21,264 nucleotides of DNA from a virus. Shown one piece after another: positions 3,319-20,776 of the stretch. The position numbers were made by a program, and so were the translations under genes. Under the pieces are notes generated by a model. It was not told the origin of the DNA and ran no database searches. It saw only the letters and a list, made by a program, of their open reading frames with translations. Where the stretch lies: positions 1-21,264 of the IMG/VR virus record IMGVR_UViG_3300048924_000502; one strand, 5' to 3'. Each line of letters opens with the position of its first letter. Positions within the stretch are counted from its first letter, which is position 1.

Positions 3319-3842
3319 TCCCGGAGCCATATGGGCTGTTTGGCAAAGTGGTGCTGCTGACCACTTTGGTTGGCGGATCCGCTGCCATCGCCTGGCAAGT
3401 GCAGGATTGGCGCTACGGCAAACAGCTCGCCGAGCAGGCTCGCCTCCACACCGAAACTCTCAATCAACTGGCCCTGGCCTCGGCCGCGCAGCAGCGTGCC
3501 GAACAAGATAGACGCCTTGCGCTCGAGCAGCGCCTGGCATCCAGTGAACAAACCCACTACCGAGCCTTGAGCGATGTCCAACGTGATCAAGATCGCCTGC
3601 GCGACCGCCTTGCCACTGCTGATCTGCGCCTGTCAGTCCTACTCGATGCTACCACCGGCTCCGGCAACGGATCGATGCCAACCTCCGCCACCACCGGCGG
3701 CATGGTTCATGGTTCCACAAGAGCCGAACTTGACCCAGCGCATGCTCAACGAATTATCGGCGTCACCGATGACGGCGACCGGGGGCTGATTGCCCTGGCA
3801 GCCTGTCAGGCATACGCCAAAGAAGTCTCAACACCGAAGTGA
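3300..3842 (+). CDS. Rz-like inner-membrane spanin (i-spanin)
   Basis: 180 residues from ATG 3300, inside the last codons of the endolysin gene; the same frame is open further left but only as endolysin shadow. A short cytoplasmic N-terminus is followed by one membrane helix (about residues 16-33, VVLLTTLVGGSAAIAW). A long charged periplasmic coiled coil follows (about 38-115, rich in Gln, Glu, Arg and Leu), then a C-terminal domain ending GLIALAACQAYAKEV. This is the standard i-spanin (Rz / LysB) layout. It joins the outer-membrane lipoprotein Rz1 to fuse the two membranes at the last step of lysis. Rz1 is encoded in another frame inside this gene. Confidence 0.82.
   Translation: MRLGELIPEPYGLFGKVVLLTTLVGGSAAIAWQVQDWRYGKQLAEQARLHTETLNQLALASAAQQRAEQDRRLALEQRLASSEQTHYRALSDVQRDQDRLRDRLATADLRLSVLLDATTGSGNGSMPTSATTGGMVHGSTRAELDPAHAQRIIGVTDDGDRGLIALAACQAYAKEVSTPK
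3574..3789 (+). CDS. Rz1-like outer-membrane lipoprotein spanin, nested in Rz
   Basis: 71 residues in the +1 frame inside the Rz-like gene, starting at ATG 3574. The N-terminus is a lipoprotein signal: a hydrophobic stretch then LLICAC, giving a lipobox ending in ICA before the Cys. The mature part is proline-rich (LPPAPATDRCQPPPPPA) and ends with PNLTQRMLNELSASP. Complete nesting of a proline-rich lipoprotein within Rz is the classic lambda-type Rz/Rz1 arrangement, and the R-pyocin cluster carries the same pair. The ribosome-binding site is weak (only a GAG-like stretch), as is common for nested Rz1 genes. Confidence 0.82.
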   Translation: MSNVIKIACATALPLLICACQSYSMLPPAPATDRCQPPPPPAAWFMVPQEPNLTQRMLNELSASPMTATGG

Positions 3843-3848
3843 AAAAGA

Positions 3849-3886
3849 GCGGCTGATCTGGATGCGTCAACATCCAGATCAGCCGC
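3849..3886. terminator. 16-bp perfect inverted repeat after the lysis genes
   Basis: Positions 3849-3864 pair perfectly with 3871-3886 around a six-base loop, so the hairpin begins seven bases after the Rz stop. No T-run follows on the + strand. On the - strand the hairpin is followed by TCTTTTT (from 3848 leftwards), so it fits an intrinsic terminator better in the leftward direction. It may stop transcription of the late operon through its stability alone, or act in both directions. Confidence 0.5.
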
Positions 3887-3959
3887 CGTCCCTGCAGATT
3901 GTCCCTGCAAGTCCAGCCGAGGCTCTTGCTCCGTGCACAAAGCGCGGCGAGCCTAGCAC

Positions 3960-3975
3960 CTGTTTATCCATACAG
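3960..3975. promoter_or_regulatory. LexA (SOS) box upstream of the adenine methyltransferase
   Basis: The sequence CTGTTTATCCATACAG matches the LexA consensus CTGT-N8-ACAG exactly. It ends 17 bases before the methyltransferase start, where LexA would block transcription. The methyltransferase is therefore expected to be induced by DNA damage, together with umuDC and probably the tail locus. Confidence 0.8.
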
Positions 3976-3992
3976 TAAAGGTCTTGCTTTTA

Positions 3993-4787
3993 ATGTCCAC
4001 ACCTATCATCCCTTGGATGGGCGGCAAACGCCGCCTGGCCGACCGCCTCCTTCCGCTTTTTCCGCCACACGAATGTTACGTCGAAGTCTTTGCCGGCGGT
4101 GCCGCGCTGTACTTCATGAAGCCGCAACCATCACCCGTCGAAGTTCTCAACGACATCAACGGCGACCTGGTCACGCTCTACCGCGTCGTGCAGAACCACC
4201 TCGAAGAATTCGTGCGCCAGTTCAAATGGGCGCTCAGTTCGCGGCAAGTGTTCGAATGGCAGAAGATCACCCGCCCCGAAACTCTCACGGACATTCAGCG
4301 CGCCGCCCGATTCTTCTACCTGCAGCACCATGCCTTTGCCGGCAAGGTCTCCGGTCAGACGTTCGGCACGGCGACCACCGCACCGGCCATCAACCTGCTG
4401 CGTATCGAGGAAAACCTCTCGGCCGCGTGGCAGCGCCTGTCCGGTACCTACGTCGAAAACCTCCCTTGGCTTGAATGCGCAGAGCGTTATGACCGCGCTC
4501 ATACCTTCCATTACATGGACCCGCCTTATTGGCAAACCGCCGGCTACGGCGTGGACTTTCCGTTCGAGAACTATGAACGGATGGCCGACTTCATGCGCCG
4601 CTGCAAAGGCAAGGTGATGGTCAGCATCAACGATCATCCTGATATCCGCCGTGTGTTCAAAGGCTTCCACTTTGAGACTCTGGACATCCGCTACACCACA
4701 GCCAATCAGCGGCAGGGGAAGGCCGAAGTCAGTGGCGAGCTGGTAATCATGAACTGGCAGCCGGTAGCGTTGGGTGGGTTGTTCTGA
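3993..4787 (+). CDS. D12-class DNA adenine N6-methyltransferase (Dam-like)
   Basis: 264 residues from ATG 3993; an in-frame TTG at 3984 is less likely because TAAAGG (3975-3980) would be too close to it. The family motifs are in order: PWMGGKRRL (residues 7-15), the SAM-binding EVFAGGAALYF (31-41), an internal DINGDLVTLYR block, and the catalytic MDPPYW with DPPY at 176-179. These identify a phage-type Dam methylase that transfers methyl from SAM to adenine N6, most often in GATC, though the target cannot be read from sequence. It has no restriction partner beside it, so protection of phage DNA or gene regulation is more likely than restriction-modification. A perfect LexA box lies just upstream. 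Confidence 0.9.
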   Translation: MSTPIIPWMGGKRRLADRLLPLFPPHECYVEVFAGGAALYFMKPQPSPVEVLNDINGDLVTLYRVVQNHLEEFVRQFKWALSSRQVFEWQKITRPETLTDIQRAARFFYLQHHAFAGKVSGQTFGTATTAPAINLLRIEENLSAAWQRLSGTYVENLPWLECAERYDRAHTFHYMDPPYWQTAGYGVDFPFENYERMADFMRRCKGKVMVSINDHPDIRRVFKGFHFETLDIRYTTANQRQGKAEVSGELVIMNWQPVALGGLF

Positions 4788-4850
4788 CGGATGCTGGCTG
4801 TCATTTCTTTAGTTCCCGCCCTCCCGTTTATCCGATATTTCCTACAGAAA

Positions 4851-4893
4851 TTGACCGAGTGCCGTTCTGAACGTTAACTGTATATTCGTACAG
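4851..4893 (+). promoter_or_regulatory. umuDC promoter region with LexA box (4878-4893)
   Basis: CTGTATATTCGTACAG at 4878-4893 is a second perfect CTGT-N8-ACAG LexA box, ending 18 bases before the umuD start. The TATATT inside it can act as -10 element, and TTGACC at 4851-4856 is a possible -35, though their spacing (24 bases) is too long. TTAACT at 4874-4879 gives 17 bases but a poor -10. The operator is clear; the exact promoter is not. Confidence 0.7.
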
Positions 4894-4911
4894 TATCGGA
4901 AGTCGTGCGTC

Positions 4912-5337
4912 ATGAGCTTTTCAATCCTAGGCCCTATTGCTGTGGCCGGTCGGAAATTACCTCTTTGTCTTTTTCGGGTGCCGGCAGGTTTTCCTTCGCC
5001 TGCAGCGGATCACATCGAAACCCACATCTCGCTCGACGAAGTGCTCAATATTCGTGCCCCGCATGTTTACCTGGTGAAAATTGCCGGAGAGAGCATGCAG
5101 GGGGCAGGAATCTTTGACGGCGATTTGGCGGTAGTGGATCGTTCATTGGAGCCGGTGCATGGGCACATTGTTGTTGCGCTACTTAACAATGATCCACTTT
5201 GCAAACGGCTGTGCATCCGTGGAAAAGAGGTGATCCTTCTGTCCGAAAATCCCAAGTATCCACCGCGCTACGTGCTGGAAGGCGATGAGCTGGCGATCTG
5301 GGGCGTGATCATTGGCAGCGTGCGCAGTCATGTCTAG
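4912..5337 (+). CDS. umuD: UmuD-like SOS mutagenesis peptidase (S24 family)
   Basis: 141 residues, against 139 in E. coli UmuD. The protein keeps the self-cleavage layout: an Ala-Gly bond at residues 25-26 (RVPAGF), the nucleophile in GESMQGAGIFDGDLAVVDR with S61, and the general-base lysine K98 in the DPLCKRL segment. RecA filaments stimulate cleavage to UmuD', which joins UmuC to form the translesion polymerase Pol V. The stop overlaps the probable umuC start by eight bases, so the two are coupled. The LexA box at 4878-4893 should control both. The start at ATG 4912 gives the normal family length. Confidence 0.93.
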   Translation: MSFSILGPIAVAGRKLPLCLFRVPAGFPSPAADHIETHISLDEVLNIRAPHVYLVKIAGESMQGAGIFDGDLAVVDRSLEPVHGHIVVALLNNDPLCKRLCIRGKEVILLSENPKYPPRYVLEGDELAIWGVIIGSVRSHV

Positions 5338-6607
5338 GCGGGTGTCGGTGTTCGGCTTGATCGATTGCAACAGCTTCTACGCCAGCTGCGAACGAGTGTT
5401 CCGTCCTGACCTGGCAAAGGTCCCCATCGTTGTCTTATCGAATAACGACGGCTGCGTCATCGCCCGCAGCTACGACGCCAAACCATACGTGAAAATGGGC
5501 GAGCCGTATTTCCAGATCAAACACAAGCTTAAGAAGCACGGCATCGTCCCGTTCTCCTCGAACTACGCGCTATACGGTGACATGAGTGAGCGCGTCATGA
5601 CGCTGATTGAGTCCATGGTTCCCGCAGTGGAGGTCTACAGCATCGACGAAGCCTTTGTCGCACTCACCGGCATCAACGACCTGGACGGCCTCGGTCGAAG
5701 GATCCGTAGCCAGGCACTGCGTTGCACGGGTATTCCGGTCGGTGTCGGCATCGCGCACACCAAGACCTTGGCCAAGCTGGCCAACCATACGGCCAAACGC
5801 CTTCAGGCGCAGACGGGCGGTGTCGTCAATATTTGCGACCCAACTAAGCGTGACTGGGTGCTGCGCAACACAGATGTTTCAGAGGTGTGGGGTATAGGGC
5901 GTCGAATGAAAGCGCACCTGGATACGATGGGAATCAAGAGTGCGATGGATCTGGCAAAAGCTGATCCTTGGACGCTACGCAAAAACTTCAGTGTGGTGAT
6001 CGAAAAGACGGCGCGAGAACTTGCCGGCACTCCCTGTCTGGAACTAGACGAGCCCGATCCTCCGAAGCAGGAGATCTGCTGCAGTCGAATGTTCGGCACC
6101 CGGCTGACGGAACTTGCACCGATCAAGGAGGCGGTGGCCACGTACATGATGCGCGCCTCGGAAAAGCTGAGGGCGCAAAAATCGCTGTGCAAAAAAGTGC
6201 GCGTGAGCATCCGCACCGGGATGTTCAATCCTGAGGAGGCGAAATACGCCAATGGTGTGGTGATCGATATGCCTTATCCCACAGACGATGTCCGGCTCCT
6301 AACCAAGGCCGCAGTTGCTGCGGTGGTTCGGGTATATCGCCCTGGTTTCAAGTACAGCAAGGCGGAGGTATTGCTGATGAGCCTGTGTCAGCCAGGCGAA
6401 TACACGGATGATCTGTTTGCGGCTTCTCAACCAACCGAGTCTACCAAGGTGATGGCCGTACTGGATCAGATCAACGAACGGTGGGGAAGGGGGACGCTGC
6501 GAGCGGCGAGTGTCCCTAGTAGCCCAGCGTGGGCCATGCGACGTGAAATGATGAGTCAGAGCTACACGACTCGCTTGGACCAATTGTGGACGATCAACTG
6601 TAGGTAG
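5330..6607 (+). CDS. umuC: UmuC-like Y-family DNA polymerase V catalytic subunit
   Basis: 425 residues from ATG 5330, or 419 from GTG 5348, which would begin exactly at FGLIDCN as many family members do. Y-family catalytic residues are present: D12 in LIDCNSFYASCE, and D106/E107 in YSIDEAF. The fingers/palm motif LSNNDGCVIARS and the helix-hairpin-helix region around WGIGRRMKAHL are also clear. The little-finger domain begins near CCSRMFGTRL, and the UmuC-specific C-terminal part ends MRREMMSQSYTTRLDQLWT. The protein inserts bases opposite damaged template once assembled with UmuD'. The gene is full length and is followed by a terminator. Confidence 0.94.
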   Translation: MSRRVSVFGLIDCNSFYASCERVFRPDLAKVPIVVLSNNDGCVIARSYDAKPYVKMGEPYFQIKHKLKKHGIVPFSSNYALYGDMSERVMTLIESMVPAVEVYSIDEAFVALTGINDLDGLGRRIRSQALRCTGIPVGVGIAHTKTLAKLANHTAKRLQAQTGGVVNICDPTKRDWVLRNTDVSEVWGIGRRMKAHLDTMGIKSAMDLAKADPWTLRKNFSVVIEKTARELAGTPCLELDEPDPPKQEICCSRMFGTRLTELAPIKEAVATYMMRASEKLRAQKSLCKKVRVSIRTGMFNPEEAKYANGVVIDMPYPTDDVRLLTKAAVAAVVRVYRPGFKYSKAEVLLMSLCQPGEYTDDLFAASQPTESTKVMAVLDQINERWGRGTLRAASVPSSPAWAMRREMMSQSYTTRLDQLWTINCR

Positions 6608-6612
6608 TAAAT

Positions 6613-6643
6613 CGTCCGCTATCGGCCAAGAGCGGACGTTTTT
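6613..6643 (+). terminator. Intrinsic terminator after umuC
   Basis: CGTCCGCT (6613-6620) pairs with AGCGGACG (6631-6638) around a ten-base loop, and TTTTT (6639-6643) follows, five bases after the umuC stop. The arms and the GGCC in the loop resemble the dispersed Pseudomonas element noted at 7624-7679 and 13550-13615, so the terminator may derive from that repeat. Confidence 0.8.
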
Positions 6644-6700: not shown

Positions 6701-7462
6701 TTATTGAGCGATACCACACTCAATCCCGTTCTTCGCCTCCCATGTGGCAAGCAGGAAAAGCGCAGTTGAGCCCGCCAGATTCACTGCCAGTTCTGCATGC
6801 CGTGGAGCAGCCTTCACCCCGCCTTTTCCTTTTCCGTGAGCATCGCTTAGACGATTCCGAAGCGCGCCTAACCCTTCTACAACTGCTGTACATCCTCCAA
6901 GGATTTGCTTGAACACGACCTCTTCATGCTGTGCCTTCGTCAGATTTAAAAGCGTAGCTGTTTGTTTGTAGAGCTTGTTCAGATCAGGAGTCGTCTCATG
7001 GTCGCTCGTTCCGGCTTCGTCAAGAATGTGTTTGCATACCGATTCTAGGAGCGTACGAGCCATGGTGATAGCTCCCTCGGGGTCAGTTGAGCGCCTTTCA
7101 AGTGCTTTTGTCCAAGCGATCCGAACGTGCTCAGCGTCAATACGGTCCAGCGTCTCCGAGACAACGATATCCGAAGGGTGCTCCCCACCCGATTCAGCAA
7201 AGTCGACGAGCGCCCTAAAATCATCCCAGATGAACTTCCTACGCTCTGCGTAGCTTGGGAATTTCGGCTGGATGAACCCCCAAAACTGATCTAAGTTCCT
7301 GTAACGACGCACCCACGCGGGCACCAGAGAGGCCACACGAGAGTCATCAAGAACGCTCTGCCGGTAAAGAGGGTAATCCCGCTCATCATCATCGTGTCCA
7401 TTCCCGGTGGCACGATTGATGTAGATCGATTGCAAGCCTTCAACGTCATCAATGAGAGCCAT
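6701..7462 (-). CDS. Abortive-infection C-terminal (Abi_C) HEPN-type protein
   Basis: 253 residues on the minus strand; start ATG at 7462 with an AGGGA ribosome-binding site just upstream. Residues ~130-245 look like the Abi_C domain: AITMARTLLESVCKHILDEAG, then TPDLNKLYKQTATLLNLT, then LRNRLSDAHGKG, and a final helix of small residues. The segment R202-N203-R204...H209 fits the HEPN ribonuclease motif (Arg, polar residue, 4-6 residues, His), so a phage-triggered RNase role is plausible. The N-terminal ~120 residues contain no domain I recognise and may be the sensing part. It stands alone between umuDC and a STAND NTPase that diverges from it. Its HEPN function is inferred from motif only. 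Confidence 0.78.
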   Translation of the reverse strand: MALIDDVEGLQSIYINRATGNGHDDDERDYPLYRQSVLDDSRVASLVPAWVRRYRNLDQFWGFIQPKFPSYAERRKFIWDDFRALVDFAESGGEHPSDIVVSETLDRIDAEHVRIAWTKALERRSTDPEGAITMARTLLESVCKHILDEAGTSDHETTPDLNKLYKQTATLLNLTKAQHEEVVFKQILGGCTAVVEGLGALRNRLSDAHGKGKGGVKAAPRHAELAVNLAGSTALFLLATWEAKNGIECGIAQ

Positions 7463-7879
7463 GGCTTCCCTACCTTCGTTGCCTGTATACCAAACAGTTA
7501 TACCAGCTCACGATTGCCTTTGAACCTCGCTCGTAACGGCATTTCTGCGCGGGCGCCTTCGGGGGCGGTGGTTTCGCACAATCTCAGATCCGCTACTCAC
7601 CATATGGCCGAATGCGGCCGCCTTTCGGCCAGAAACGGACGTTCAGAAACGACTGATTCGGCCAGAAGCAGGCGTTCCAAGGCAAAACTACCTTTTAGCA
7701 ATGGTGTAGCCTAACTCAACGGAATCCCCAATAAATATCTGTGACTTGGAGGAGCACTGCAGAGGGGTGGAGCCTAAGAATCCACCTCAGTTAGACAGCC
7801 TGAAGGAGTGTCAAATTGACATCAGCCTTTCGGATCGCCTAGTGTTAGAAAATTGCTTCTAATACATAGGGAAATGGTC
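7463..7879. other. Divergent intergenic region with degenerate repeats
   Basis: About 415 bases separate the Abi_C gene and the STAND gene, and both promoters must lie here. The frames contain no protein-like stretch. The left half is GC-rich and carries a repeated segment (7624-7679); the right half becomes AT-rich towards the STAND gene, marking the edge of the acquired block. I see no clear -35/-10 pair. Confidence 0.6.
7624..7679. repeat. Imperfect 23-bp direct repeat (Pseudomonas-type element)
   Basis: TTCGGCCAGAA followed by C-rich/CGTTC sequence occurs at 7624-7646 and again at 7657-7679, with about five mismatches. Together with GGCCGAATGCGGCCGCC just before, this resembles the dispersed GGCC-cored intergenic palindromes common in Pseudomonas. 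Related copies are the umuC terminator and the segment near 13550. Confidence 0.5.
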
Positions 7880-10825
7880 ATGATAACCGTAGATGAAATT
7901 TACGCCTGCCTCCAGGAAGAAGAGTCGCCTGTCCTAGAGTTTAAACGTGATTGGTATTGGACCAATGCTTCATCGCCAGTAGAAATTTCAAGGCAATGGG
8001 GTGAGTTCCTCAAAGACATAATTTCGCTTTGCAACTCTTACGTCGGATATTGCGGGATTGATCGATATCTGATAGTTGGATTTGGCGAAGCAGATAAAAA
8101 AGTATATCCCATAGATATATCCAGTATTAAAAAGCTTAGCGATCTAAAGCTTTTTAAAAAGGATTTATTAGCGCGACTGGAGAAAATAGTCAACACACCG
8201 CCACTTAACATCGAAATTGAAACAGTGCTGATAGATGGGCACACACTTCTAGCATTTAAAATCCCCAGCCCAACCTCTATTACCGAAATAAAAAATAATC
8301 TAGACACCAAAACTCTAACCGTGATGGCTGGAGTTGTTCTTGTTCGAAAGGGACAGGACAATGACTCTGTACGCGCAGCCTCAACAGAGGAAATAGCATT
8401 TCTAGTTTCTGATTTTTCGAAATTCAAAGATTCGCTCGACAAAAAGCCAAAGCCAGATCAAAAACGCGACAGAAGCATTAAGAGCACTGTTGAGCTGTAT
8501 ATAGATAAGAACAGAAGCCTGAGTATTGAGAAAGATTTTCCTGTGTCAAAAAGAGACTGGAGCGAAAATGTTCTTTTTGAACTTTACAGGCTGAACCAAA
8601 AATTTTCAAATCCAACTGTTTTCTTATACATACATGAAAATGCTGCGCAAAACAAAACATTCGAACATATCAAGCGCGAAAAGCTAACAAATACTAATGA
8701 TACTTTAATTGTATTGACAGAGCGTCCAAGTGAACTAAAAGACCTTGGCAGAAGAAAAAGCAATTTGAAGGCGCGCTTTCAAACAGAGCATGTTTTTTTT
8801 ATTGATGAATTCGGTTATAAAAATCTCTATTCCGAATACATGTTAGATTACCAACCTTATCGATTGGAGAACTACGTTGAGGGGGTTGCCGATATCGGCA
8901 GTGACGAAAAGAAAAAAGCACTTGACCAATTGAAGGATTGGTACGGCGCAGTGTCGAATCCATTGATGGTGATCAAGGGATATGGCGGGATTGGTAAAAC
9001 CACCTTAGTAAAACAGTTTCTCGACCACGTGCACGATCATCATGATGACGTGGGTATTCTATTTATCGACTCAAATGAAATCGTTGACGAGCTGATAAAA
9101 ATTGCCCGGTCGGATCATAATATTGACGATATTTATGATTTCTACCTGGCTCAAATGAAGAAAAAGGATTTTGATGGCAAAGGGTTTAGTAAAGAGCTTT
9201 TAAAACTTTCTGTAGATAACGGAAATTTGCTTATAGTTTTAGACGGTATAGACGAAGTTATTGCCAAACTTGGGACTGGATTCGACGTTTCTTCTTTTAT
9301 TACTTCAATCTCAGAAAGCTATACGACGAATTTAGAAAAAACAAAGATCATCATAACTTGTCGAGATTATTTCTGGGATACCTTGGAGTATAAAACAAAG
9401 GTTGAAGAGATTACTCTTGAGCCGTTTAGTGAAGATCTTGCCGCCGTGTTTTTTCAGAAATATTTCGCTGGAGATCAGGCTAAAATCTCAAAAGCTTTGA
9501 AAATGGCTTCGGAATTCAGGCTGAGTAGCGACAAAAAAGATAGCGACTTAATTTACATCCCTTATGTGTTAGACATGATCGGATACTTAATTAAGCAGCA
9601 TTCTGAGTTTGGTGGCCATAACAATGTAAAGGCCAAGGCGAGATTGCTCTCTCCGGCGATGTCCAATGATTTCTTAGTGCTTAGTGTTTGTGAGCGTGAA
9701 GTAACGAAGCTTGGCAACTTCAGCATAGATGATCAGGTGGGTTTTCTTATAAATCTAGCGATACAAGAAAGCGGTTACGTCACTGATTACAATATAAAAA
9801 ATCTTTCTAATTGCGATATAGATGACCTAACCATTGAAAAGTTAAAAGCACACCCTCTTCTTAGGTACAGCCACGGAAAAATAAATTTTAGATATGACTT
9901 TTTCTATGAGTACTTCAAAGGGTTGTATATTTATAGCTATTATCTCGACTTAAATGTATCAAAGTTGGATGATAAGCTTATCGAGTTGATTGGTTCATAT
10001 CTGCGCTATGGTAACCAACTGTGTAGCACTCTCAGTCGGAAGCTAGAATATAGCGACAGCCTTGTTTATTTTACAATGGAAACCGTTGAGCAACTTAATA
10101 AACTGGTTGATTTTGCAGAGCCGTCCGAGAAAAGCAAATACTTGTCAGCAATTTCTTCTTGTTTTGTTATGGCAATAACTTTGTTGATAGAGTCGGGTGA
10201 CAAAAAATTCGATAGTTCTTCAGCTACAGATCTTCTCACTACAATTTTTGGCGACTCTGGTGGCGGCGAGATTTCTGGCGTTGCATTAATAAATATCTTA
10301 GCTGGAGATTCGAAGAAACTAACGTTCGATCTTAAGTCAAAAACCATAAGAAAATCACATTTTGAGCGCTATGATTTCTTTTGGGATTGTGCAATGGACG
10401 AAAATACACATTTCGTCACTTCAAATTTTTATCAGTTGGAACCTCGAAAGGGACTTCGTCCTGCAGTGATTCCTAGTTTTGAAGATTGCGACACTATAGA
10501 TATTCAGCACGTCATTAACAAAAGAATAGAGGAAGAAAACGAGCAGAGTGAACGAATTACTGAGAGTTTAAAAAAGGTTTTTGAACTATTCAAGGAGCGC
10601 GGTAATTTTTACCCTCAAAAACAGCAGTACATAAAATCCAAGATCGTCACTAACAACTTGCTACCAACCCTTCTTAAGAATGGGGTAATTGAGGATTATA
10701 CGGATGACAAAAAGCCGACTTTGCGGCAATATAGAGTAAGTAACGAATATCGAAACATACTTAAATTTATAGATCAGGGTACGCCATGCATTGAGCTGGA
10801 TCGCGTGCTTAGTCTGTTTAAATAA
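7880..10825 (+). CDS. STAND NTPase: AlbA_2 (Schlafen-like) domain fused to NACHT
   Basis: 981 residues from ATG 7880, with AGGGA at 7868-7872 as ribosome-binding site; ATG 7874 and TTG 7853 are alternatives. Residues ~1-180 are an AlbA_2/Schlafen-type domain (SPVLEFKRDW at 16-25, SLCNSYVGYCG, YLIVGFGE, then VVLVRKGQDNDSVRAAS). A linker follows. The NACHT-type NTPase has Walker A GYGGIGKTT (367-375), Walker B LDGIDE (454-459) and an arginine sensor TCRD (493-496). Next come a helical/winged-helix part with FRYDFFYEYFKGLYIY, and a ~300-residue C-terminal region that I do not recognise and that probably senses a trigger. NACHT proteins of this plan are known bacterial anti-phage factors. The gene is AT-rich with many ATA and AGA codons, unlike the GC-rich flanks, so it was acquired. 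A HEPN-like gene follows by 92 bases. Confidence 0.85.
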   Translation: MITVDEIYACLQEEESPVLEFKRDWYWTNASSPVEISRQWGEFLKDIISLCNSYVGYCGIDRYLIVGFGEADKKVYPIDISSIKKLSDLKLFKKDLLARLEKIVNTPPLNIEIETVLIDGHTLLAFKIPSPTSITEIKNNLDTKTLTVMAGVVLVRKGQDNDSVRAASTEEIAFLVSDFSKFKDSLDKKPKPDQKRDRSIKSTVELYIDKNRSLSIEKDFPVSKRDWSENVLFELYRLNQKFSNPTVFLYIHENAAQNKTFEHIKREKLTNTNDTLIVLTERPSELKDLGRRKSNLKARFQTEHVFFIDEFGYKNLYSEYMLDYQPYRLENYVEGVADIGSDEKKKALDQLKDWYGAVSNPLMVIKGYGGIGKTTLVKQFLDHVHDHHDDVGILFIDSNEIVDELIKIARSDHNIDDIYDFYLAQMKKKDFDGKGFSKELLKLSVDNGNLLIVLDGIDEVIAKLGTGFDVSSFITSISESYTTNLEKTKIIITCRDYFWDTLEYKTKVEEITLEPFSEDLAAVFFQKYFAGDQAKISKALKMASEFRLSSDKKDSDLIYIPYVLDMIGYLIKQHSEFGGHNNVKAKARLLSPAMSNDFLVLSVCEREVTKLGNFSIDDQVGFLINLAIQESGYVTDYNIKNLSNCDIDDLTIEKLKAHPLLRYSHGKINFRYDFFYEYFKGLYIYSYYLDLNVSKLDDKLIELIGSYLRYGNQLCSTLSRKLEYSDSLVYFTMETVEQLNKLVDFAEPSEKSKYLSAISSCFVMAITLLIESGDKKFDSSSATDLLTTIFGDSGGGEISGVALINILAGDSKKLTFDLKSKTIRKSHFERYDFFWDCAMDENTHFVTSNFYQLEPRKGLRPAVIPSFEDCDTIDIQHVINKRIEEENEQSERITESLKKVFELFKERGNFYPQKQQYIKSKIVTNNLLPTLLKNGVIEDYTDDKKPTLRQYRVSNEYRNILKFIDQGTPCIELDRVLSLFK

Positions 10826-10917
10826 GTTGGCTCATTGCTTTCTTTTTAGTTTCTGGGATCTCTATGAGTGATTTTAGACAATGTTTATCTGCTTTGAGAC
10901 ACTGTATGGGGTGAGAG

Positions 10918-11547
10918 ATGGACGTTGAGGACATTGAGAAAGACTTTAAGGCTTTGGTCGAAGGTGAGGCCGACTTGTTGAATCTGGTTGTGAAGTTTCA
11001 CTTCTCGATAGATAAGGTACTAGATAAAGCTCTTTTTGAGGCTTTGCCTATGTCTAACGCAATGGAGCTAAAAAGGGTTTCTTTTTTATTGAAATTTGAT
11101 TTTCTGTCTGCCTTAAATGTTTTAAGTAGGGATGTGCGTAAATTTTTTGACTATTGTAATAGCATAAGGAATACGTTCGCGCATAATCCATATGCAACCT
11201 TCCAGGACAAGGATGTAGTTAAGGCAAAAAGCTTATTGCTTTCCCACCCGCGTCCGGTGGTTCCTAAGACTTTTCTGGGAGAGAAGGACAGCGTTGAAGT
11301 TTTGAAAACGCTTTTTAGTGTTTGCTTCTTGCAGGCTGTAGTAGCTTACGAGGCTTTATGTAGGCAGAAGGTTCTCAATCTTATCGCTAGTGAGATGACT
11401 ATCGAAGCGGCCAACGGTGAAGGGAGGAAGTTTCAAGGAAAAATGTCAGTGAACGCAGAGTTTGAGCGCAGGTGTGTCGAGCGTTTAAGTGTACTTTATC
11501 CTGCAATAGAACCTGGAGACTTTTACAATGAGGCCGCGAGAAAATAA
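10918..11547 (+). CDS. Small HEPN-like protein next to the STAND NTPase
   Basis: 209 residues; ATG 10918 is preceded by a GGGGTGAGAG ribosome-binding site. The protein is mostly helical. IRNTFAHNPY at residues 83-92 contains R84-N85-xxx-H89, the RX4-6H motif of HEPN ribonucleases with the usual polar residue after Arg. Upstream, FHFSIDKVLDKALFEALP resembles the first HEPN helix of DUF4145/Swt1-like or mannitol-repressor-like proteins. It lies 92 bases after the STAND gene in the same direction and shares its AT-rich composition. It may be that protein's effector, or an independent toxin-like gene. The domain class is a motif-based inference; no partner antitoxin is visible. Confidence 0.7.
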   Translation: MDVEDIEKDFKALVEGEADLLNLVVKFHFSIDKVLDKALFEALPMSNAMELKRVSFLLKFDFLSALNVLSRDVRKFFDYCNSIRNTFAHNPYATFQDKDVVKAKSLLLSHPRPVVPKTFLGEKDSVEVLKTLFSVCFLQAVVAYEALCRQKVLNLIASEMTIEAANGEGRKFQGKMSVNAEFERRCVERLSVLYPAIEPGDFYNEAARK

Positions 11548-11853
11548 ATTGTGCAGGCCTCCTTCAATCTTTTTTCACTCTTCGTTTCAAGGTTTAAATT
11601 TTGGCGAGTAGTATACCCACCGGTTAACTCCATGTGCTCCGCTACGCCTTCACCGCTGGTGGTAGATCCAGGGCAACCAATGGGGCATTCATGTGCACTC
11701 CCTGGAGTAGTGGATGGCTGCCGTGATACCAGTTAGAGATGATAGAACAACACGGTCCGGCGTGATTGCCAGGCGCGTAAGAAAAGGCCTCCGCACCGGG
11801 GCGAGGTGTGGGTGCCGATTGAACGTAGGGCGGAATGATTCACAGTCGGCTGG
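11548..11853. other. Gap with possible integrase remnant at 11622-11729
   Basis: There is no intact gene in these ~300 bases, and composition returns to GC-rich. In the + frame starting at 11628 the translation reads LHVLRYAFTAGG, with Thr-Gly and then a stop just before it. This resembles the TGQ..THVLRHTFAS box (HxxR motif) of tyrosine recombinases with the Gln codon turned into TAA. Only about a dozen residues match, so this is a weak call. If real, it is the scar of the integrase that brought in the preceding AT-rich block. Confidence 0.25.
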
Positions 11854-12225
11854 TCACTGTTTCCAATGGGTGACATCAATCGGCTTTAGGCCGAAAGAGG
11901 TAATCGACGGGTCATATTCGAGGTATTGGTTCAGCGAAAAGGTGTAGCTGCCAGATGGGATATTACGAACGCTTGCTGGCCACACTTCGTCGGTTGATAC
12001 CGGAGAACCTGATGCGTCGTAAGCGGTAATTTTGATCTGCACACCGACCGCTTCGGCACAATTGTTTTCCAACGTGGCCACGCCCTGCATCACCATGCAC
12101 GCGGCGGCATCGCACTTTTTCACAAACTGGGCTTTCATCGAGGTTATTTTGATGTCCGATACCGAACAGTCTGCATAGACCGAATGGGTGGCCACTAAAA
12201 TGGCTAGCGCTACGACGTACTTCAT
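11854..12225 (-). CDS. Small secreted protein of unknown function
   Basis: 123 residues on the minus strand starting MKYVVALAILVATHSVYADC: a positively charged first residue, a hydrophobic core and an AxA-like VYA site before Asp, which is a normal Sec signal peptide. An in-frame ATG at 12237 (MESPP) would lengthen it by four residues and keep the signal. The mature part (about 103 residues) has Cys residues in the segments ADCSV, KKCDAAACMVM and ENNCAEAV, suggesting two disulfides. Its FSLNQYLEYDPSITSFGL-type beta pattern suggests a small extracellular beta protein. I do not recognise a function. It stands alone, with no gene in the same transcript. Confidence 0.7.
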   Translation of the reverse strand: MKYVVALAILVATHSVYADCSVSDIKITSMKAQFVKKCDAAACMVMQGVATLENNCAEAVGVQIKITAYDASGSPVSTDEVWPASVRNIPSGSYTFSLNQYLEYDPSITSFGLKPIDVTHWKQ

Positions 12226-12436
12226 GGGGGGAGATTCCATTGATTGAGCTCTGCATAGTGCCGATCTGCCATAGCCGAAACAAGGCAGCAACGCCGTGGT
12301 AGAGCAAGAACGAAGGCACACAAAAACACTTCGTTGTTTTTTGAGGACGATTGAACGAAAACACCATTACTCGTAATGCGGGCTCAGTTAATTTGTTCGC
12401 GATCGTTAGCCAGTTTCTTGGCCCACAGGGCGGCTG

Positions 12437-12631
12437 TTAACTCATCGAGAAAGCGTCAACGCCCTCCCGGTCGAAAATTCCCAACTCCTTCAGCTCCAGC
12501 ATGCAGCCATGGAGCATACCTTGACGCCAAATCTGCGAGTCATGATTGTAGTCGTTGATAAGGTAGACCAGTTCTTCGCGCAGCTGCGCCAGACACCGGG
12601 CTTTCAGTGCTTCGGCAGGATCGATAGTCAT
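12437..12631 (-). CDS. Small hypothetical protein, probably truncated by a 1-base indel
   Basis: 64 residues on the minus strand; the start at 12631 has GAGGGA about ten bases upstream. It begins MTIDPAEALKARCLAQLREELV and is an amphipathic helical cytosolic protein I do not recognise. The frame ends early at GVDAFSMS. Restoring one A to the AAA run at 12450-12452 (T on the coding strand) would let it read on as FLDELTAALWAKKLANDREQIN to a stop at 12384-12386. That extension is protein-like in composition, so the true product is probably 82 residues. Confidence 0.6.
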   Translation of the reverse strand: MTIDPAEALKARCLAQLREELVYLINDYNHDSQIWRQGMLHGCMLELKELGIFDREGVDAFSMS

Positions 12632-12663
12632 AATGGGGGTTCCCTCGCGCTCGTTACTAGAAG

Positions 12664-13284
12664 CTATTCGCCTGCGTCTGGAGCGGAACGACTTTTCCTT
12701 TCCAGCTCATCGAGCCAGGCAATCACTTCGTTCATACTCTTATCCCGGTCCCACTCTCCGGGTAGAGGATCTTCAGCAGGTAGCCCTGCATGAGAACGAA
12801 GTTTTTTCACGATGGCAGATGCCTGCAGCCCGAGTAAGGCATACCCCCGTCTCCTTACCCAGAAAAATTCGGGGTGATCCGGCGGATCGCAATTGAAATC
12901 TTGGATGCCTCGAAGCTTTCCATGAAGCTGGTCTTGTTGATCGGGAATCCGAAGAATCAAATACATCAAATCTTTAGGTAGTAGCCGCCAATCAACATCA
13001 AGCTCCAGCGGCCGAAATACTGGGTCCGCGGTAGTGGTCTGGCAATAACCACTTTGGCCCGCTGGCTGCCCATGCCAGGTGCCATCGTCTTTGCAGCAGT
13101 CGAAGCATTCAGTGGCGAATCGATCCAAATGGGAAACTACAATAATTCCTAGATAGGTAGTGGCTTGGTTAATCGTCTTCCGCTTGATCCACCACTCTTT
13201 GATGAGGACAAATGCGTTGCCAAGCAAGACGCCGCTGATACCCGCCGCAGCCGAGATTATTGCTGAAACGTTCCCTGGATCCAT
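12664..13284 (-). CDS. Membrane-anchored protein of unknown function
   Basis: 206 residues on the minus strand; the start at 13284 has GGAGAGG a few bases upstream. Residues ~6-28 (VSAIISAAAGISGVLLGNAFVLI) form one N-terminal membrane helix, followed by a basic KEWWIKRK stop-transfer. The remainder is soluble. It contains a cysteine cluster (CFDCCKDDGTWHGQPAGQSGYC at about 60-81), long helices near 105-130 and 150-195, and an acidic C-terminus. The topology suggests a bitopic protein with a cytoplasmic domain. I cannot name the family. It is 32 bases upstream of the small gene that ends at 12437 and may be co-transcribed with it. Confidence 0.65.
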   Translation of the reverse strand: MDPGNVSAIISAAAGISGVLLGNAFVLIKEWWIKRKTINQATTYLGIIVVSHLDRFATECFDCCKDDGTWHGQPAGQSGYCQTTTADPVFRPLELDVDWRLLPKDLMYLILRIPDQQDQLHGKLRGIQDFNCDPPDHPEFFWVRRRGYALLGLQASAIVKKLRSHAGLPAEDPLPGEWDRDKSMNEVIAWLDELERKSRSAPDAGE

Positions 13285-13613
13285 TAATGCCTCTCCGTGA
13301 ATTGAATGTGTAAGCGCTGATTGTAGGCGCTTCGATCAATAGCGCGCAGAGGCTGATTTTGTGACAGCAGCCACTCCAGTCCCGTATCAGCATGATGTGG
13401 GTATTTTTCTTACGCCAAACGACACAAATCCAAGATACTCTCGGAAAATCAATTGCTTGCGATTACCGCATGTGGCGGTGCAGGAGAGGTTCGAACTCCA
13501 ACAAATTTTGCCAACATCATCTCTTCAAAATTCATCATTACTGTCCGCTTATGGCCGAAAGCTGCCGCTCACGGAATGCCGATTTTGGTCGATTGCTGCC
13601 TGCAAAGACGATA
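13285..13613. other. Gap holding a tRNA-like 3' fragment and a degraded palindromic element
   Basis: No protein-like frame is visible in these ~330 bases. On the minus strand, 13503-13473 reads as a T-loop (GTTCGAAC) followed by a C-rich stem and an end in ACCGCCA. That resembles the 3' end of a tRNA, but nothing upstream forms the rest of the cloverleaf. From about 13550 a GGCC/GGTCGA-cored imperfect palindrome of the Pseudomonas intergenic type follows. Confidence 0.45.
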
Positions 13614-13615
13614 TT
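13550..13615. repeat. Pseudomonas-type dispersed intergenic element, degraded
   Basis: TCCGCTTATGGCCGAAAGCTGCC and, after a short spacer, GGTCGATTGCTGCCTGC form the two arms of an imperfect palindromic element that resembles those scattered through Pseudomonas intergenic DNA. The umuC terminator and the repeat at 7624-7679 share the CGTCCGCT/TGGCC core. The arms here have diverged, so it is an old copy. Confidence 0.4.
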
Positions 13616-13832
13616 AGGATTGCCGTATCCGCATAATCGCATCTGTGATCGCTTTTGCATTTGTGTCTAAGGTCTCCATAGCCATCACAGCGTTATCTGC
13701 AACCACTGCCGCGCCACTGGCTGCAAGCCAAATGGCAACCTCCTCGATTGCCGCCGCCAGTGCATGCTGGTTGTGCAGGAGCAACGTCAGGGCGTCAGCA
13801 GTGGCGATATTAGAAGCTGAGTTATTTGGCAT
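13614..13832 (-). CDS. Small Pseudomonas-type hypothetical protein
   Basis: 72 residues from ATG 13832; AGGA about eight bases upstream of this ATG favours it over the in-frame ATG at 13841, which that same AGG touches. The sequence ADALTLLLHNQHALAAAIEEVAIWL is of a short all-helical type seen as orphan genes in Pseudomonas genomes. It has no signal peptide or membrane helix. Function is unknown. It is the last small leftward gene before the candidate defence operon. Confidence 0.6.
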   Translation of the reverse strand: MPNNSASNIATADALTLLLHNQHALAAAIEEVAIWLAASGAAVVADNAVMAMETLDTNAKAITDAIMRIRQS

Positions 13833-13841
13833 GCGATCCAT

Positions 13842-14406
13842 CCTGGAAATGAGGTGTTCGCGAAGCCTAGCTCATGCGGCCGCACCAGAGAGGCTTAGAT
13901 ACCGCATGCTTAAAAATTGCTACAACGCGCAGATGATTTGAGACTTCAGCCAATCAGTTGGGGGGGAGGCTGGCTACTGCATCCAATCCATCATCGGCGC
14001 GACGGAGAAACGGCGGGAGAGTGGGGCGGGTGTGGCGGTGATTGGGGGCATTGGGGGTACGGAATCGGTGTGGCTGGGAGGTGGGGGAGTTTATCAGGAT
14101 TGCAGAATCCGCGGCTCTCTCGGGATAGGTTTGTGCGGCCTATTGCTGTGTTCTGAGGGGGCCGTTTGGCTGTGCTGTAGGTGAGTGAGGGAGCTATGCA
14201 TTTTTTTCGGTTCTCCACTGCCCAGGTAAGTCCTTCAGTAGGTGGAGGCTCTGCTCATACAGGGCTCCGACGAATGTCGAAGAAAAAGCGGTGACCTCCG
14301 ATCTTATCGATCTTGATTGTTATCGTTCGGCTTGGGCATAGTGCTACTACGCGCGGAGCTTTGGGCGACCCGTTACGCCCCAATCTGGTCAAGCTGGGAG
14401 CTGGCT
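13842..14406. other. Long G-rich gap before the NdpA-like operon
   Basis: About 565 bases without a protein-like frame. The + strand from 13960 to 14087 is packed with G runs: seven G at 13960-13966, five G at 14044-14048, 14053-14057 and 14083-14087, and four G at 14023-14026. Such strand-biased G runs could form G-quadruplexes in single-stranded DNA or RNA, though some loops exceed the usual length. The promoter of the following operon must lie in the last ~150 bases, which are more AT-rich, but I cannot assign -35/-10 boxes. Confidence 0.5.
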
Positions 14407-15546
14407 ATGAATGAATACGTAGAACAATTAGATACTAAACACGTAGACCAGGCAGACAATGAGGAAGGTGCAGCGAGCTGGGGAGTTGTGGTGGTTGCTG
14501 CTTGTGCCGCCCGCTTTATAAAGAAAACTCTAGGTGGTCACACATTCTACGATAGTGTTAGAGGAAAAGACTGGGACCTTGATTCGGATGTCTGCCTGAA
14601 ATTTGTAGAGCTAATTGGTAAAAAGTTCGCGCGAGGCGGCAGAATCTATGGCTATGTCGACCCAAGAATGATCACCGCAGCAGAAAATTTTGCCAATTAT
14701 TCAACTAGCAAAGATTTTGCTGTTCTTGTCGACGGTGTTATGGAACGGATCTGCCACGAAGCCAATGATCCCAGTCGTAGTTCCATCAGTACTGGCTATG
14801 TGGTTTTTGCTCACTACAGAGATGCTCAGGCGCGTGATCAAGTATTAGTTGTCATGCTTGGTAAAAAAGGCGGGTATGATTTTGATGATAATGATCAGAT
14901 GACCCCCAAAGATACAGAGAGCCTTAATCTTCAAGATTTCCGACAAGCTGCATGCATGGATCTGACTGGTTTTGACTTAGGATATCCTGAAAATAAGGAG
15001 GATTCGTATCTATGCTTCATTAAGGGTAAGTCTAAAAGTGAATTTTTCAACGCTGCTCTTGGTTGCTCTGATTCGGTCCCAGGGAAAGTGTGCGTTGATA
15101 ACCTAAAAGAGGCTCTGTCAGCTTATTTCACAGAGGCGGGAGATGGGCTGTCTGCCACTGATAGACGAAAGATTTTCGGCAAGGTTGTATCTTATATTGA
15201 GAGCAAAGCCGGTGAGCGAGTACACCTTTCCGAAGTTCAGAATGTCATTAATAAGTGCTTGCCGGAGAATTCAGATCAGAATGGGAAGTTTCAAAAATTC
15301 TTAAGCGAAAACTCTGATCGGTTCAAGGTGAGTGAGGAGTTTCAGCCGTCTCATGTTGCGGCAAAAAATATGGGCTTTGTTGATGTTAAGCTTTCATCTG
15401 GCGACTTTGATGGAAAAGTGAAACTTGAGGCCATTTCAGTGGGGGAGAAGGGAGCAGATCTCTCAGTGGACAAGGATTTTGCTTATTTGACGATCAAGCT
15501 GCCGCCTGAGGTTTCCATGAAGCTGAAGGGTATAAGATTGGAGTAA
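14407..15546 (+). CDS. NdpA/YejK-like (NA37) nucleoid-associated family protein
   Basis: 379 residues from ATG 14407 with GGGAG about seven bases upstream; an in-frame TTG at 14317 is open but has no better site. The middle matches the NA37 family (E. coli YejK, 335 residues): STGYVVFAHYRDAQ corresponds to GGFVLFCHYR. QVLVVMLGKKGGYDF, LNLQDFRQAACMDLTGF and YLCFIKGKSKSEFFNAALGC follow in the same order as in YejK. The N-terminal ~80 residues are less conserved. YejK is a nucleoid-bound protein, so DNA association is expected here, but this copy lies in an AT-rich accessory operon with nucleases rather than in its usual place. It may be a DNA-sensing component of a defence system. The next gene starts ten bases after its stop. 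Confidence 0.8.
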   Translation: MNEYVEQLDTKHVDQADNEEGAASWGVVVVAACAARFIKKTLGGHTFYDSVRGKDWDLDSDVCLKFVELIGKKFARGGRIYGYVDPRMITAAENFANYSTSKDFAVLVDGVMERICHEANDPSRSSISTGYVVFAHYRDAQARDQVLVVMLGKKGGYDFDDNDQMTPKDTESLNLQDFRQAACMDLTGFDLGYPENKEDSYLCFIKGKSKSEFFNAALGCSDSVPGKVCVDNLKEALSAYFTEAGDGLSATDRRKIFGKVVSYIESKAGERVHLSEVQNVINKCLPENSDQNGKFQKFLSENSDRFKVSEEFQPSHVAAKNMGFVDVKLSSGDFDGKVKLEAISVGEKGADLSVDKDFAYLTIKLPPEVSMKLKGIRLE

Positions 15547-15556
15547 GGAGCCGGGT

Positions 15557-16783
15557 ATGATGGACCATATTGTTGTAGACGGCGAAGAAATTGTTTTAAC
15601 TGCATGCTATGCAGATCTACCCGCAGCTTACAGTTTTCTGGCTAGTCTTGGATGTGAGTCTCCGGAGCAGCTTGAGAGGGTAGGTGACCAAATTTACTTA
15701 TCAAGCAGTACCCAGGTGTGGCGGAAACGCTTTATCCCTTTTTTTTCAAGCGCTGAGAATCTTTGGTTCGCTTTGCGTAATATGGAGGATGAACCGGAGC
15801 ACTATTTCATTATAGGTGCAGATGACGCGGTGCTTGCTGATCTAAAAAGGAGATTTAAGTTTTATTTCTCGCTCAGGTCAATGCTAAAAGAGCTTTGTCA
15901 TCATGAGGGTGACGACCTTCAGCCTATGAAGTATGTTTTCTTCACCAGCAAAGAGTCGCATCTCAAGAAGCTTGAGGTCATGTATGCAATGGACCTTAAT
16001 GCTTTTATGGCGTTCGAGCTTTCGGATGGCGATATTCTAAACGCCAATGCCCTCATGGCTGCTGTTAAGCAAGTTGACGATGTGCATTGCGATGAGCGGA
16101 AGCATGTAATGCGTGAGGCTCTTGTCGAGTTTTTTAAAGAAGAAGACGGGCGTGCTTTGCAGCCCCTTATGTCTAATATTGGCAAGTTCTATGGGGCATA
16201 TAATGAGAGATATAAGGTTTACGTCAGTAAGTTTTCAGTCAATAAGATTTTGAGCGAAATTGAGAATGAGCGTATTGGGTTTCTCTGCAAAATCCAAGAC
16301 GCGATTATGTCCCAGCAAACGAAAGCCTTTGCTGTCCCTGGCGGGCTTGTTGCGGTAGGCGCAGTTCTTAGATTTTCAAAGGGTTTTTGGGACTTTGCCA
16401 TAATTTTTATTGGCTTGACGCTCACCACTTGGATGATTACTTCGCTTAATAAAACTGTGATAAATCACATAGAGTTGCTCGGCGATGAGTTCAAAAAATC
16501 AATATCAAAGTACGATGATATTATTGTTGGTGTTGAGAATGTCAAGGCTGAGATCGAAGTGTCAAGAGCTAGGCTGAATACTTCATCTGCCCATGCTCGG
16601 TCCAGGTTGGTGGGTCTAACAAGAATCTCATGGCTTATACTGATTGTAGTGACGATTATGTTGATTAGTCGCTCTGGTTTTTACAGCGGTGAGGCGGTCA
16701 AGGCAATATTGGAGCGGTTTCTCGACTGGCTTAAAGCTAACTGGGAGACTGCTATGGAGACCACGGTCTCTCTTTTTATGTGA
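15557..16783 (+). CDS. Three-helix membrane protein of unknown family, operon partner
   Basis: 408 residues; ATG 15557 (or 15560) lies behind AAGGAG. Residues 1-~250 are soluble, mixed alpha/beta then helical, and I do not recognise them. Membrane helices are likely at 257-272 (AFAVPGGLVAVGAVLR), 277-296 (FWDFAIIFIGLTLTTWMIT) and 357-372 (ISWLILIVVTIMLI). Between the second and third lies an acidic/helical stretch (300-350) suited to a coiled coil. A C-terminal amphipathic tail (380-408) follows the last helix. It could be a pore-forming or membrane-damaging effector, or an anchor for the partner proteins. It follows the NdpA-like gene by ten bases, so they are very likely co-translated. Confidence 0.7.
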   Translation: MMDHIVVDGEEIVLTACYADLPAAYSFLASLGCESPEQLERVGDQIYLSSSTQVWRKRFIPFFSSAENLWFALRNMEDEPEHYFIIGADDAVLADLKRRFKFYFSLRSMLKELCHHEGDDLQPMKYVFFTSKESHLKKLEVMYAMDLNAFMAFELSDGDILNANALMAAVKQVDDVHCDERKHVMREALVEFFKEEDGRALQPLMSNIGKFYGAYNERYKVYVSKFSVNKILSEIENERIGFLCKIQDAIMSQQTKAFAVPGGLVAVGAVLRFSKGFWDFAIIFIGLTLTTWMITSLNKTVINHIELLGDEFKKSISKYDDIIVGVENVKAEIEVSRARLNTSSAHARSRLVGLTRISWLILIVVTIMLISRSGFYSGEAVKAILERFLDWLKANWETAMETTVSLFM

Positions 16784-16868: not shown

Positions 16869-17741
16869 ATGTCTAAACAAGCTGATTACAGACCTAGGAA
16901 GTGTTATATCTCTGCTCCTTTCGGATTGGATCTGGGGAACCTTCCAGAGCTGTTGGCAGAACGGAATTTGTTATGGGAGTGGGCGAAGGATGAATTCCTT
17001 GAAAACGAGAGTGCTAGTGAAAGAATTGCCGCATCTGATCTTGTGTTAATTGTTTTAAACGGCACCAAGGCAGATTACCGGGGTGCTTTCGAATCCGGAT
17101 TGGCGGTCGGTCTCGGTAAGCCGGTATTGTTGATTCAGACCAAAGCGCGAATGCTTCCTCTTGATTACAGCCTTTTTGCCGTTATCAAAACCAGTTTACA
17201 AGATAGAGAAGCTCTAAAATTTCATTTGGATCTGTTTCTCGCATCGCCATCTCCACCGGCTATCAGCGCGAAGACTAAACGTGTCAAAAATTTAGTGCCA
17301 TCACCTCCGAGTAAGGCACGTCAGCCAATGAAAACCTTTGATTCTGCTCTGGAACAAAGGGTATTCGAGGCAGTGAATATGGCAGGCGGCAGTGCAATAT
17401 CACAACCTCCGCCGTCTCCAGGGATGAAGTATCGACCTGATCTCCTGGCATGGCTTGGACATCTAGAGCCGGAATTGCTAGATCCTGTCGCGATTGAAGT
17501 GAAAGGTGTTGTTGATACAGCTGAAGCCGCCCAGCTTGAGCAGAAGCTTGGAACGTTTATAGAGTCAGCACGCCTAAAAATGGCTTTGGTAATCACTAGT
17601 TTCCCTCAGCCGCATCGAGACTACCTCTTACCAAACGTTATTTGGATAGATGTTGAAGCTTTTGAGTTGTTGGCGGCTTCTGGGCAGCTTGGTATGTATA
17701 TCAGAAATACGCGAAATCGTATTGCGCATGGGGTTCGATAA
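16869..17741 (+). CDS. TIR/deoxyribosyltransferase-like domain fused to PD-(D/E)xK nuclease
   Basis: 290 residues from ATG 16869; AAGG lies about 12 bases upstream. Residues ~11-90 look like a nucleoside 2-deoxyribosyltransferase/TIR-like Rossmann fold: CYISAPF (12-18), ASDLVLIVLNGTKADYRGAFESGLAVGLGKPVLLI with the conserved Glu at E75. A Ser/Pro/Lys-rich linker (124-155) follows. Residues ~155-265 have the nuclease pattern FDSALEQRVFEA (helix with Glu), YRPDLLAW (D191) and AIEVKG (E210, K212), then MALVITSF and VIWIDVEAFELL. The last residues read RNTRNRIAH, an RX4H-like motif of the HEPN type, although there is no HEPN fold around it. The gene overlaps the next by one base (TAATG). Its fold assignments come from motif reading only. 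Confidence 0.75.
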   Translation: MSKQADYRPRKCYISAPFGLDLGNLPELLAERNLLWEWAKDEFLENESASERIAASDLVLIVLNGTKADYRGAFESGLAVGLGKPVLLIQTKARMLPLDYSLFAVIKTSLQDREALKFHLDLFLASPSPPAISAKTKRVKNLVPSPPSKARQPMKTFDSALEQRVFEAVNMAGGSAISQPPPSPGMKYRPDLLAWLGHLEPELLDPVAIEVKGVVDTAEAAQLEQKLGTFIESARLKMALVITSFPQPHRDYLLPNVIWIDVEAFELLAASGQLGMYIRNTRNRIAHGVR

Positions 17742-18274
17742 TGGCTGCTATTGATCATGTCAATATTGCAGCTAAGCTTGCTGCTGGTGATGTAGGTAAT
17801 ACGGCGGTGAAGGGCGCGGCTCTTGAAGAAGTAGTTGCAGAAACGCTCTGTCAGCTTGAGGGTGTTGGATTAATTAAGCGCAATATCATGGATAATGCGG
17901 AGTCTCTTGAGATTGATATACTTCTCTATAATCATCGTCAGAGAAATGGATTACCCTTTCTCCCGAATCATTTAGTCATCGAGTGCAAAAATTGGCAAGC
18001 GCCAGTGAATTCGGCAACCTTAACCGTGTTTACCGGAAAGCTTCGTAAGTTTCGGGTCGATTTTGGTATTTTGGTTGCCGCAAGTGGGATAACGGGGGAT
18101 CCGCATGATCGGACGGCAGCTCACGCTCATCTTCGGAGTGTCTATGATCGTGATGGATTGGCTGTGATAGTAATCACCCGAGCGGAAATCGAAGCTTTAC
18201 GCGATACTGATGAGTTAGGTGCATTAATTCGTGAAAAGTACGGTGATTGTATCATGGGGGCTGACCAATTTTAG
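17741..18274 (+). CDS. Mrr-like restriction endonuclease-fold protein, PD-(D/E)xK
   Basis: 177 residues; ATG 17741 shares its A with the stop of the preceding nuclease gene (TAATG), so translation is coupled. Residues E30 (GAALEEVVAETL), D59 (ESLEIDILLY) and E81-x-K83 (HLVIECKNW) form a typical nuclease core, with the helix-Glu, Asp and ExK spaced normally. A downstream KLRKFRVDFGILVAASG strand/helix is typical of Mrr-type and DUF2034-like nucleases. No separate DNA-binding domain is visible, so specificity would come from a partner, probably the fused nuclease/TIR-like protein. The gene is followed by about 195 bases before the next remnant. Confidence 0.8.
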   Translation: MAAIDHVNIAAKLAAGDVGNTAVKGAALEEVVAETLCQLEGVGLIKRNIMDNAESLEIDILLYNHRQRNGLPFLPNHLVIECKNWQAPVNSATLTVFTGKLRKFRVDFGILVAASGITGDPHDRTAAHAHLRSVYDRDGLAVIVITRAEIEALRDTDELGALIREKYGDCIMGADQF

Positions 18275-19392: not shown

Positions 19393-19478
19393 ACATAATC
19401 CTGTAAAAGCAGAAATGACCGAAAGGTAATAGATTTGTTTTTATGAATTTTTAGTCCTGAAGTGGGTTTGCACCTGTT

Positions 19479-19641: not shown

Positions 19642-19644
19642 ATT

Positions 19645-20693: not shown

Positions 20694-20710
20694 TTCGAGT
20701 GGAGACTGGC

Positions 20711-20767: not shown

Positions 20768-20776
20768 GAGAAGTTC

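Follow-up and report, generated by a model that had tools for sequence, protein, structure and literature searches.

The locus analysed here lies in a virus record of 21 kb that stands alone, and our search of its own genome was confined to that record, a stretch of 21,264 nucleotides referred to below as the window. The locus raises the question of whether two adjacent genes, one for a large STAND NTPase and the other for a small HEPN-like protein, make up one defence system. An earlier note on the same DNA had proposed so, describing a two-gene AlbA_2-NACHT plus HEPN set. Based on our comparisons, we instead favour, with a probability of about 0.7, two independent, adjacent prophage defence genes: a single-gene Schlafen-NACHT receptor and a stand-alone HepS-like HEPN RNase. 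That both genes are AT-rich and adjacent was correctly observed in the note. Their GC contents are 38% (STAND) and 42% (HEPN) against 57-61% in the phage backbone, and they lie on the same strand with a gap of 92 bp. The two genes occur together in one further locus, G209, which belongs to the same prophage lineage as the window.

Table 1. Coordinates of the main features in the window.
Feature	Position	Strand	Basis or remark
Repeat, TCGGCCARAARCGGAC-like	6614..6637	.	Left edge of exchanged segment
AbiJ-like gene (Abi_C), RNRLSDAH	6701..7462	-	Pfam Abi_C 1.9e-20; PADLOC AbiJ 1.4e-18
Repeat, two copies	7625..7673	.	Left edge of STAND-HEPN block common to G209
AlbA_2-NACHT STAND gene	7880..10825	+	ORF, Pfam, fold matches, homologues at 28-98% identity
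SLFN_AlbA_2 domain, predicted RNase effector	7922..8365	+	P0001 residues 24-171; Pfam
Alpha/beta domain between effector and NACHT	8462..8890	+	Residues ~204-346; alignment, predicted structure
NACHT NTPase	8963..9469	+	Residues 371-539; Walker A ~374-384, Walker B 459-468, R504
C-terminal part, presumed sensor	10313..10822	+	Predicted secondary structure, alignment
Small HEPN-like protein, HepS-related	10918..11547	+	209 aa; RNTFAH at residues 84-89
Repeat, inverted copy	13543..13558	.	Where G209 homology changes orientation
DS-1 pair	14317-16783		NF053868 9.6e-117, NF053869 3.8e-102, above cut-off

Architecture of the STAND protein and the role of its head

The STAND reading frame is open from 7853 to 10825 on the plus strand. 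Counted from the TTG at 7853 it encodes 990 residues (P0001), and residue numbers here follow that version, so that K382 is the K373 of the earlier note. In-frame ATG codons are found at 7874 and 7880; since AGGGA stands about 8 nt upstream of 7880, a start there is plausible. The domain calls made previously, AlbA_2, NACHT STAND and a HEPN-like partner, hold in Pfam searches, fold matches and a profile match to HepS. In Pfam, both NPHP3_N (5e-9) and NACHT (1.2e-8; 35.4 bits versus a cut-off of 26.7) exceed their gathering scores. The nucleotide-binding motifs are intact, as the note had it: Walker A is GYGGIGKTT (K382), Walker B is LLIVLDGIDE and the Arg sensor is R504 in ITCRD, with K382, D464, D467, E468 and R504 invariant in the nine homologues aligned. 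The fold is of the NLR type, with PDB matches to NOD2, NLRP3, NLRC4, Avs3 and Avs4; the Foldseek E-values for NOD2, NLRP3, Avs3 and Avs4 lie between 1e-10 and 1e-7 with low global TM-scores, from a model of mean pLDDT 69. The alpha/beta domain ahead of the NACHT module, with alternating predicted strands and helices, is among the better-scored parts of this model. In the C-terminal part, the model suggests a short beta-rich stretch resembling pentapeptide repeats (residues ~821-875) followed by a winged-helix-like end (residues ~880-990). The gene is under purifying selection, with a dN/dS of 0.03 between the window and G209. No curated NCBIfam model scored above its cut-off for this protein, and its PADLOC matches were weak.

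The head of the protein scores 2.4e-5 and 25.3 bits with the Pfam SLFN_AlbA_2 model, exactly the gathering cut-off; a 71% relative (L001) scores 26.3 and another homologue (L002) 25.0, just below it. Within this domain, whose predicted structure is of low confidence, E24, E29, K31, W34-Y35-W36, E51 and D55 are invariant among the 11 sequences compared. The catalytic acidic triad of SLFN13 consists of E205, E210 and D248, of which E205 and E210 are essential, and E24 and E29 are spaced as in that E205/E210 pair (PMC5862951). Conserved candidates for the third acid of such a triad are E51, D55, E79 and E110. In an Azonexus homologue (L003, 5167-8397), which is 39% identical overall and has the same STAND body, a PNP_UDP_1 domain replaces AlbA_2; this replacement fits an exchangeable effector position at the N-terminus. 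By alignment, the alpha/beta domain is common to the AlbA_2 and PNP_UDP versions.

From two analogues, bNACHT25 (PMC12169576) and human SAMD9, a tRNase that combines an AlbA-type domain with a STAND-like NTPase (PMC5445408, PMC12331169), we infer sensing, oligomerisation, RNase activity, a tRNA substrate and an anti-phage function for the STAND protein. Its C-terminal half would sense an infection cue, and the NACHT module would bind NTP and oligomerise. The AlbA_2/Schlafen domains, united by oligomerisation, would then cut RNA, with tRNA the most likely substrate; with translation halted, the infected cell would die or stall before the phage matures. What the comparisons establish is the anatomy: the domain order, the intact NTPase motifs, the invariant Glu pair and the exchange of the head in one relative, together with purifying selection and the occurrence of the gene by itself on several kinds of mobile element.

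The head might instead make no cut at all, the protein being a regulator or a receptor that senses nucleic acid through an AlbA_2 domain bound to DNA or RNA. AlbA_2 was originally described as a nucleic-acid-binding domain (PMC5445408) and could bind without cutting, and the winged-helix-like end in the predicted structure could bind DNA as well. However, the invariance of E24 and E29 and the exchange of AlbA_2 for PNP_UDP in what fits an effector position both argue against a non-nuclease, and the Schlafen domains of bacteria are regarded as RNases in defence loci (PMC12839542). We consider a non-cleaving protein unlikely, and retain the Schlafen-NACHT receptor with a predicted RNase head as our working model.

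The small HEPN gene and the neighbourhoods of both genes

The RNxxxH motif pointed out in the note is RNTFAH in the window protein and is invariant in 12 homologues. Across these, which go down to 17-21% identity, N81, R84, N85, H89 and H28 do not vary. An RNxxxH turns up in 0.75% of shuffles of the protein's own composition. The protein was described as helical, and it is indeed predicted to be nearly all-helical, at low confidence and from a poor model (mean pLDDT 54). The protein alone (P0002) had no significant match in Pfam, NCBIfam, PADLOC, phage or plasmid searches, and Pfam HEPN families matched its family below threshold. A profile of the extended family matches the Gifsy-1 prophage protein HepS (E=8.7e-5) over about 40 residues around the motif; the alignment falls on RNKYAH of HepS, whose His is the residue changed in the H105A entry. 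HepS ranks first by structure too, at a non-significant E=0.4 with the poor model. The dN/dS of 0.1 indicates purifying selection. Judged from its sequence, the small protein is probably a stand-alone HepS-like RNase, and it would act alone as an infection-activated enzyme.

The neighbours of the HEPN gene differ among its seven loci. They are the AbiJ-like gene and the STAND gene in the window, the STAND gene in G209, a DS-1-like pair in L009, an RloAB/AbiL-like pair in L010, another STAND protein in L022, two small genes in L033 and unrelated genes at the contig end in G382; five of the seven are thus without this STAND gene. Such surroundings would also be expected if the HEPN protein were a promiscuous accessory in a defence or exchange hotspot, serving whichever defence module adjoins, and five of the seven loci do adjoin defence-type genes (STAND twice, DS-1-like, RloAB/AbiL-like and another STAND protein). 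But clustering is usual for defence genes, the partner differs between loci, as do its distance and orientation, and the conserved leader of the HEPN gene, which includes the RBS region and is kept behind different upstream genes, begins only ~34 bp before its own start codon. We regard an accessory role as improbable and the stand-alone RNase as the better description.

The decisive locus is L009, a sibling prophage that shares its flanks with window positions 3661-6633 (93.3% identity) and 10890-14102 (92.1%). Between these flanks L009 has the DS-1-like pair instead of the AbiJ-like and STAND genes, and the HEPN gene is retained. Because this swap keeps the HEPN gene, it belongs to the right flank and not to the STAND gene. 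From its counterparts in L009 and G209 it differs by a dS of 0.26-0.28, which equals that of umuC (0.25).

The STAND loci lead to the same answer. The linkage of the two genes, which the note had named as a point to check, is found in two of 17 STAND loci and two of seven HEPN loci, and the proposed two-gene set fails by the refuting criterion that the note itself had set. The remaining 15 STAND loci, at 28-72% identity and distributed over Pseudomonas, Burkholderia, Vibrio, Campylobacterota, E. coli and P2-like phages, are without this HEPN gene. The gene was sought by profile in every ORF of the loci then in the set and, among the STAND loci, was detected in the window and G209 only; for two E. 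coli STAND loci we relied on the annotation, which lists no HEPN gene. In three genomes that carry the STAND gene, that of a 72% relative among them, no homologue of the HEPN gene is present at all. In Burkholderia lata a protein of a different HEPN family (RiboL-PSP) is encoded near the STAND gene; it is not a detectable homologue of the small HEPN protein. A single system, with the STAND protein as sensor and the HEPN protein as regulator or further effector, could draw on the close spacing on one strand, on the lack of a terminator-like site between the genes in the window and G209 (by which co-transcription in this lineage is possible) and on their being kept together at low dN/dS over a dS of ~0.26, but the neighbourhoods disagree in both directions, among STAND loci and among HEPN loci, and we reject it as very improbable.

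The STAND gene by itself is widely scattered. Its homologues in the Pseudomonas group are 71-72% (P. gregormendelii) and 41% (G115, a genome of the same genus group) identical; others occur in Burkholderia lata, Azonexus, Vibrio, Campylobacteraceae and another Campylobacterota genome, and, at about 40% identity, in five virus contigs. By DNA similarity to one of these virus contigs, the gene is present in 5 of 5426 E. coli genomes. In E. coli it adjoins tRNA-Thr, beside conjugation genes. In P2-like phage contigs it is a single-gene insert that adjoins tail completion/baseplate genes (L023, L024, L026) or the portal gene (L025, L027), the phage genes being named from translations. A tblastn search with P0001 gave no match in phages and, in plasmids, no more than partial NACHT matches of low identity. 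In P. gregormendelii the STAND gene directly follows PD-Lambda-2 B and C genes (L001:3267-5624), and the Helicobacter cinaedi homologue (L007:5989-9000) is spread over three frames and is apparently a broken copy.

Prophage setting and exchange of modules

A Pseudomonas host is suggested by the left part of the window, because its matches are to Pseudomonas phage and prophage genes (tail, lysis and DNA methylase). As read from translations, the G209 sibling (L028, L029) has lambda-type head genes, a P2-type tail and an integrase adjoining dusA, and appears to carry capsid, portal, terminase and repressor genes. We had also considered a tailocin and dropped this reading, since that gene set makes a temperate prophage more likely. 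A search for att repeats returned 13-bp words only, which were unconvincing.

The AbiJ-like gene, which has a HEPN-like motif of its own (RNRLSDAH), lies on the upstream side of the STAND gene and is read in the opposite direction, away from it. Neither L009 nor G209 has it in the homologous stretch; it lies within the exchanged segment and does not belong to the STAND system. The 16-bp repeat TCGGCCARAARCGGAC, with up to two mismatches, has four copies in the window, at 6622, 7625, 7658 and 13543, where shuffles give 0.04; this figure concerns the number of copies and, since the breakpoints themselves revealed the pattern, is no test of their coincidence with them. One L009 breakpoint (6633) and both G209 breakpoints (7626, and 13562 to within a few bases) fall at repeat copies, and the right L009 breakpoint (10890) has none. 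In G209 the block between the breakpoints is inverted relative to umuDC. Copies are also seen in L009 and L017, in tandem at a spacing of ~34 bp. From these positions we infer that recombination uses the repeat. The prophage region is a site where whole defence modules are exchanged.

To the right of the DS-1 pair, 16869-18274 encodes a nucleoside deoxyribosyltransferase-like protein, with the C-terminal end RNTRNRIAHGVR, that overlaps an Mrr_cat protein (weak PADLOC match to PDC-S02); the two may be a further defence pair. At the record edge (18880-21262, minus strand) are a PAAR-like protein and small ORFs which, judged from their translations, look like a secreted effector with immunity genes.

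Meaning and likeness to known systems

Of the two genes, the Schlafen-NACHT gene is the more interesting. We tentatively suggest, as a possibility, that it represents an undescribed single-gene family of NLR-like receptors, borne by prophages and other mobile elements, with a Schlafen RNase effector, and a bacterial counterpart of SAMD9 in plan. Our search of the open-access literature found no AlbA_2-NACHT system, and none of the curated defence models that we searched covers the protein. Its gene lies on phages, on integrated elements and in chromosomes, the hosts being Campylobacterota and several groups of proteobacteria. The analysis removes a false two-gene system. In its place stands a testable one, a compact NLR-like protein encoded by a single gene and predicted to have a Schlafen RNase as its head. 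The HepS-related HEPN gene emerges as a separate unit, and several module-exchange breakpoints fall at a short dispersed repeat. If the suggestion is right, it would open a direct route to asking whether STAND oligomerisation on phage infection triggers Schlafen-type tRNA cleavage.

Among known systems, DS-1, whose number is that of DefensePredictor (PMC13092281), is present in the window as a full pair, and a divergent DS-1-like pair takes the place of AbiJ and STAND in L009; it is unrelated to the STAND or HEPN protein and is a neighbour and exchange partner only. HepS (PDB 9OIJ, 9OIK) is, like the small protein here, a prophage-borne single HEPN protein, but its host and prophage are different, and whereas membership of HepS is defined by whole-protein homology and phage tail-tip sensing, the match here is local.

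The Schlafen-NACHT protein can be placed among the NACHT/STAND receptors with exchangeable effectors, a kind already known. With bNACHT proteins such as bNACHT25 it shares the effector-NACHT-sensor plan and the fold that matches NLRP3, NOD2 and NLRC4; it differs in having an AlbA_2/Schlafen effector, not PD-(D/E)XK, and in the extra alpha/beta domain, and its matches to the antiphage NACHT models HyoA and EruA are marginal, far below cut-off. Avs3 and Avs4 (AVAST) are also STAND NTPases, with structure matches over 620-760 alignment columns, but the sequence match to Avs3a is marginal and far below cut-off, and the window protein is without a recognised long TPR array and about half to two thirds their length. 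It also resembles the animal proteins SAMD9/SAMD9L, as in SAMD9 an AlbA_2-type head likewise sits on a STAND-like NTPase, and the Schlafen proteins, with which it shares the Glu pair at a five-residue spacing, as in SLFN13. Neither a SIR2 or OB domain nor a TPR array can be recognised in the window protein, whose P-loop is canonical whereas that of SAMD9 is atypical (PMC5445408). The likeness is one of plan, with homology supported for the domains.
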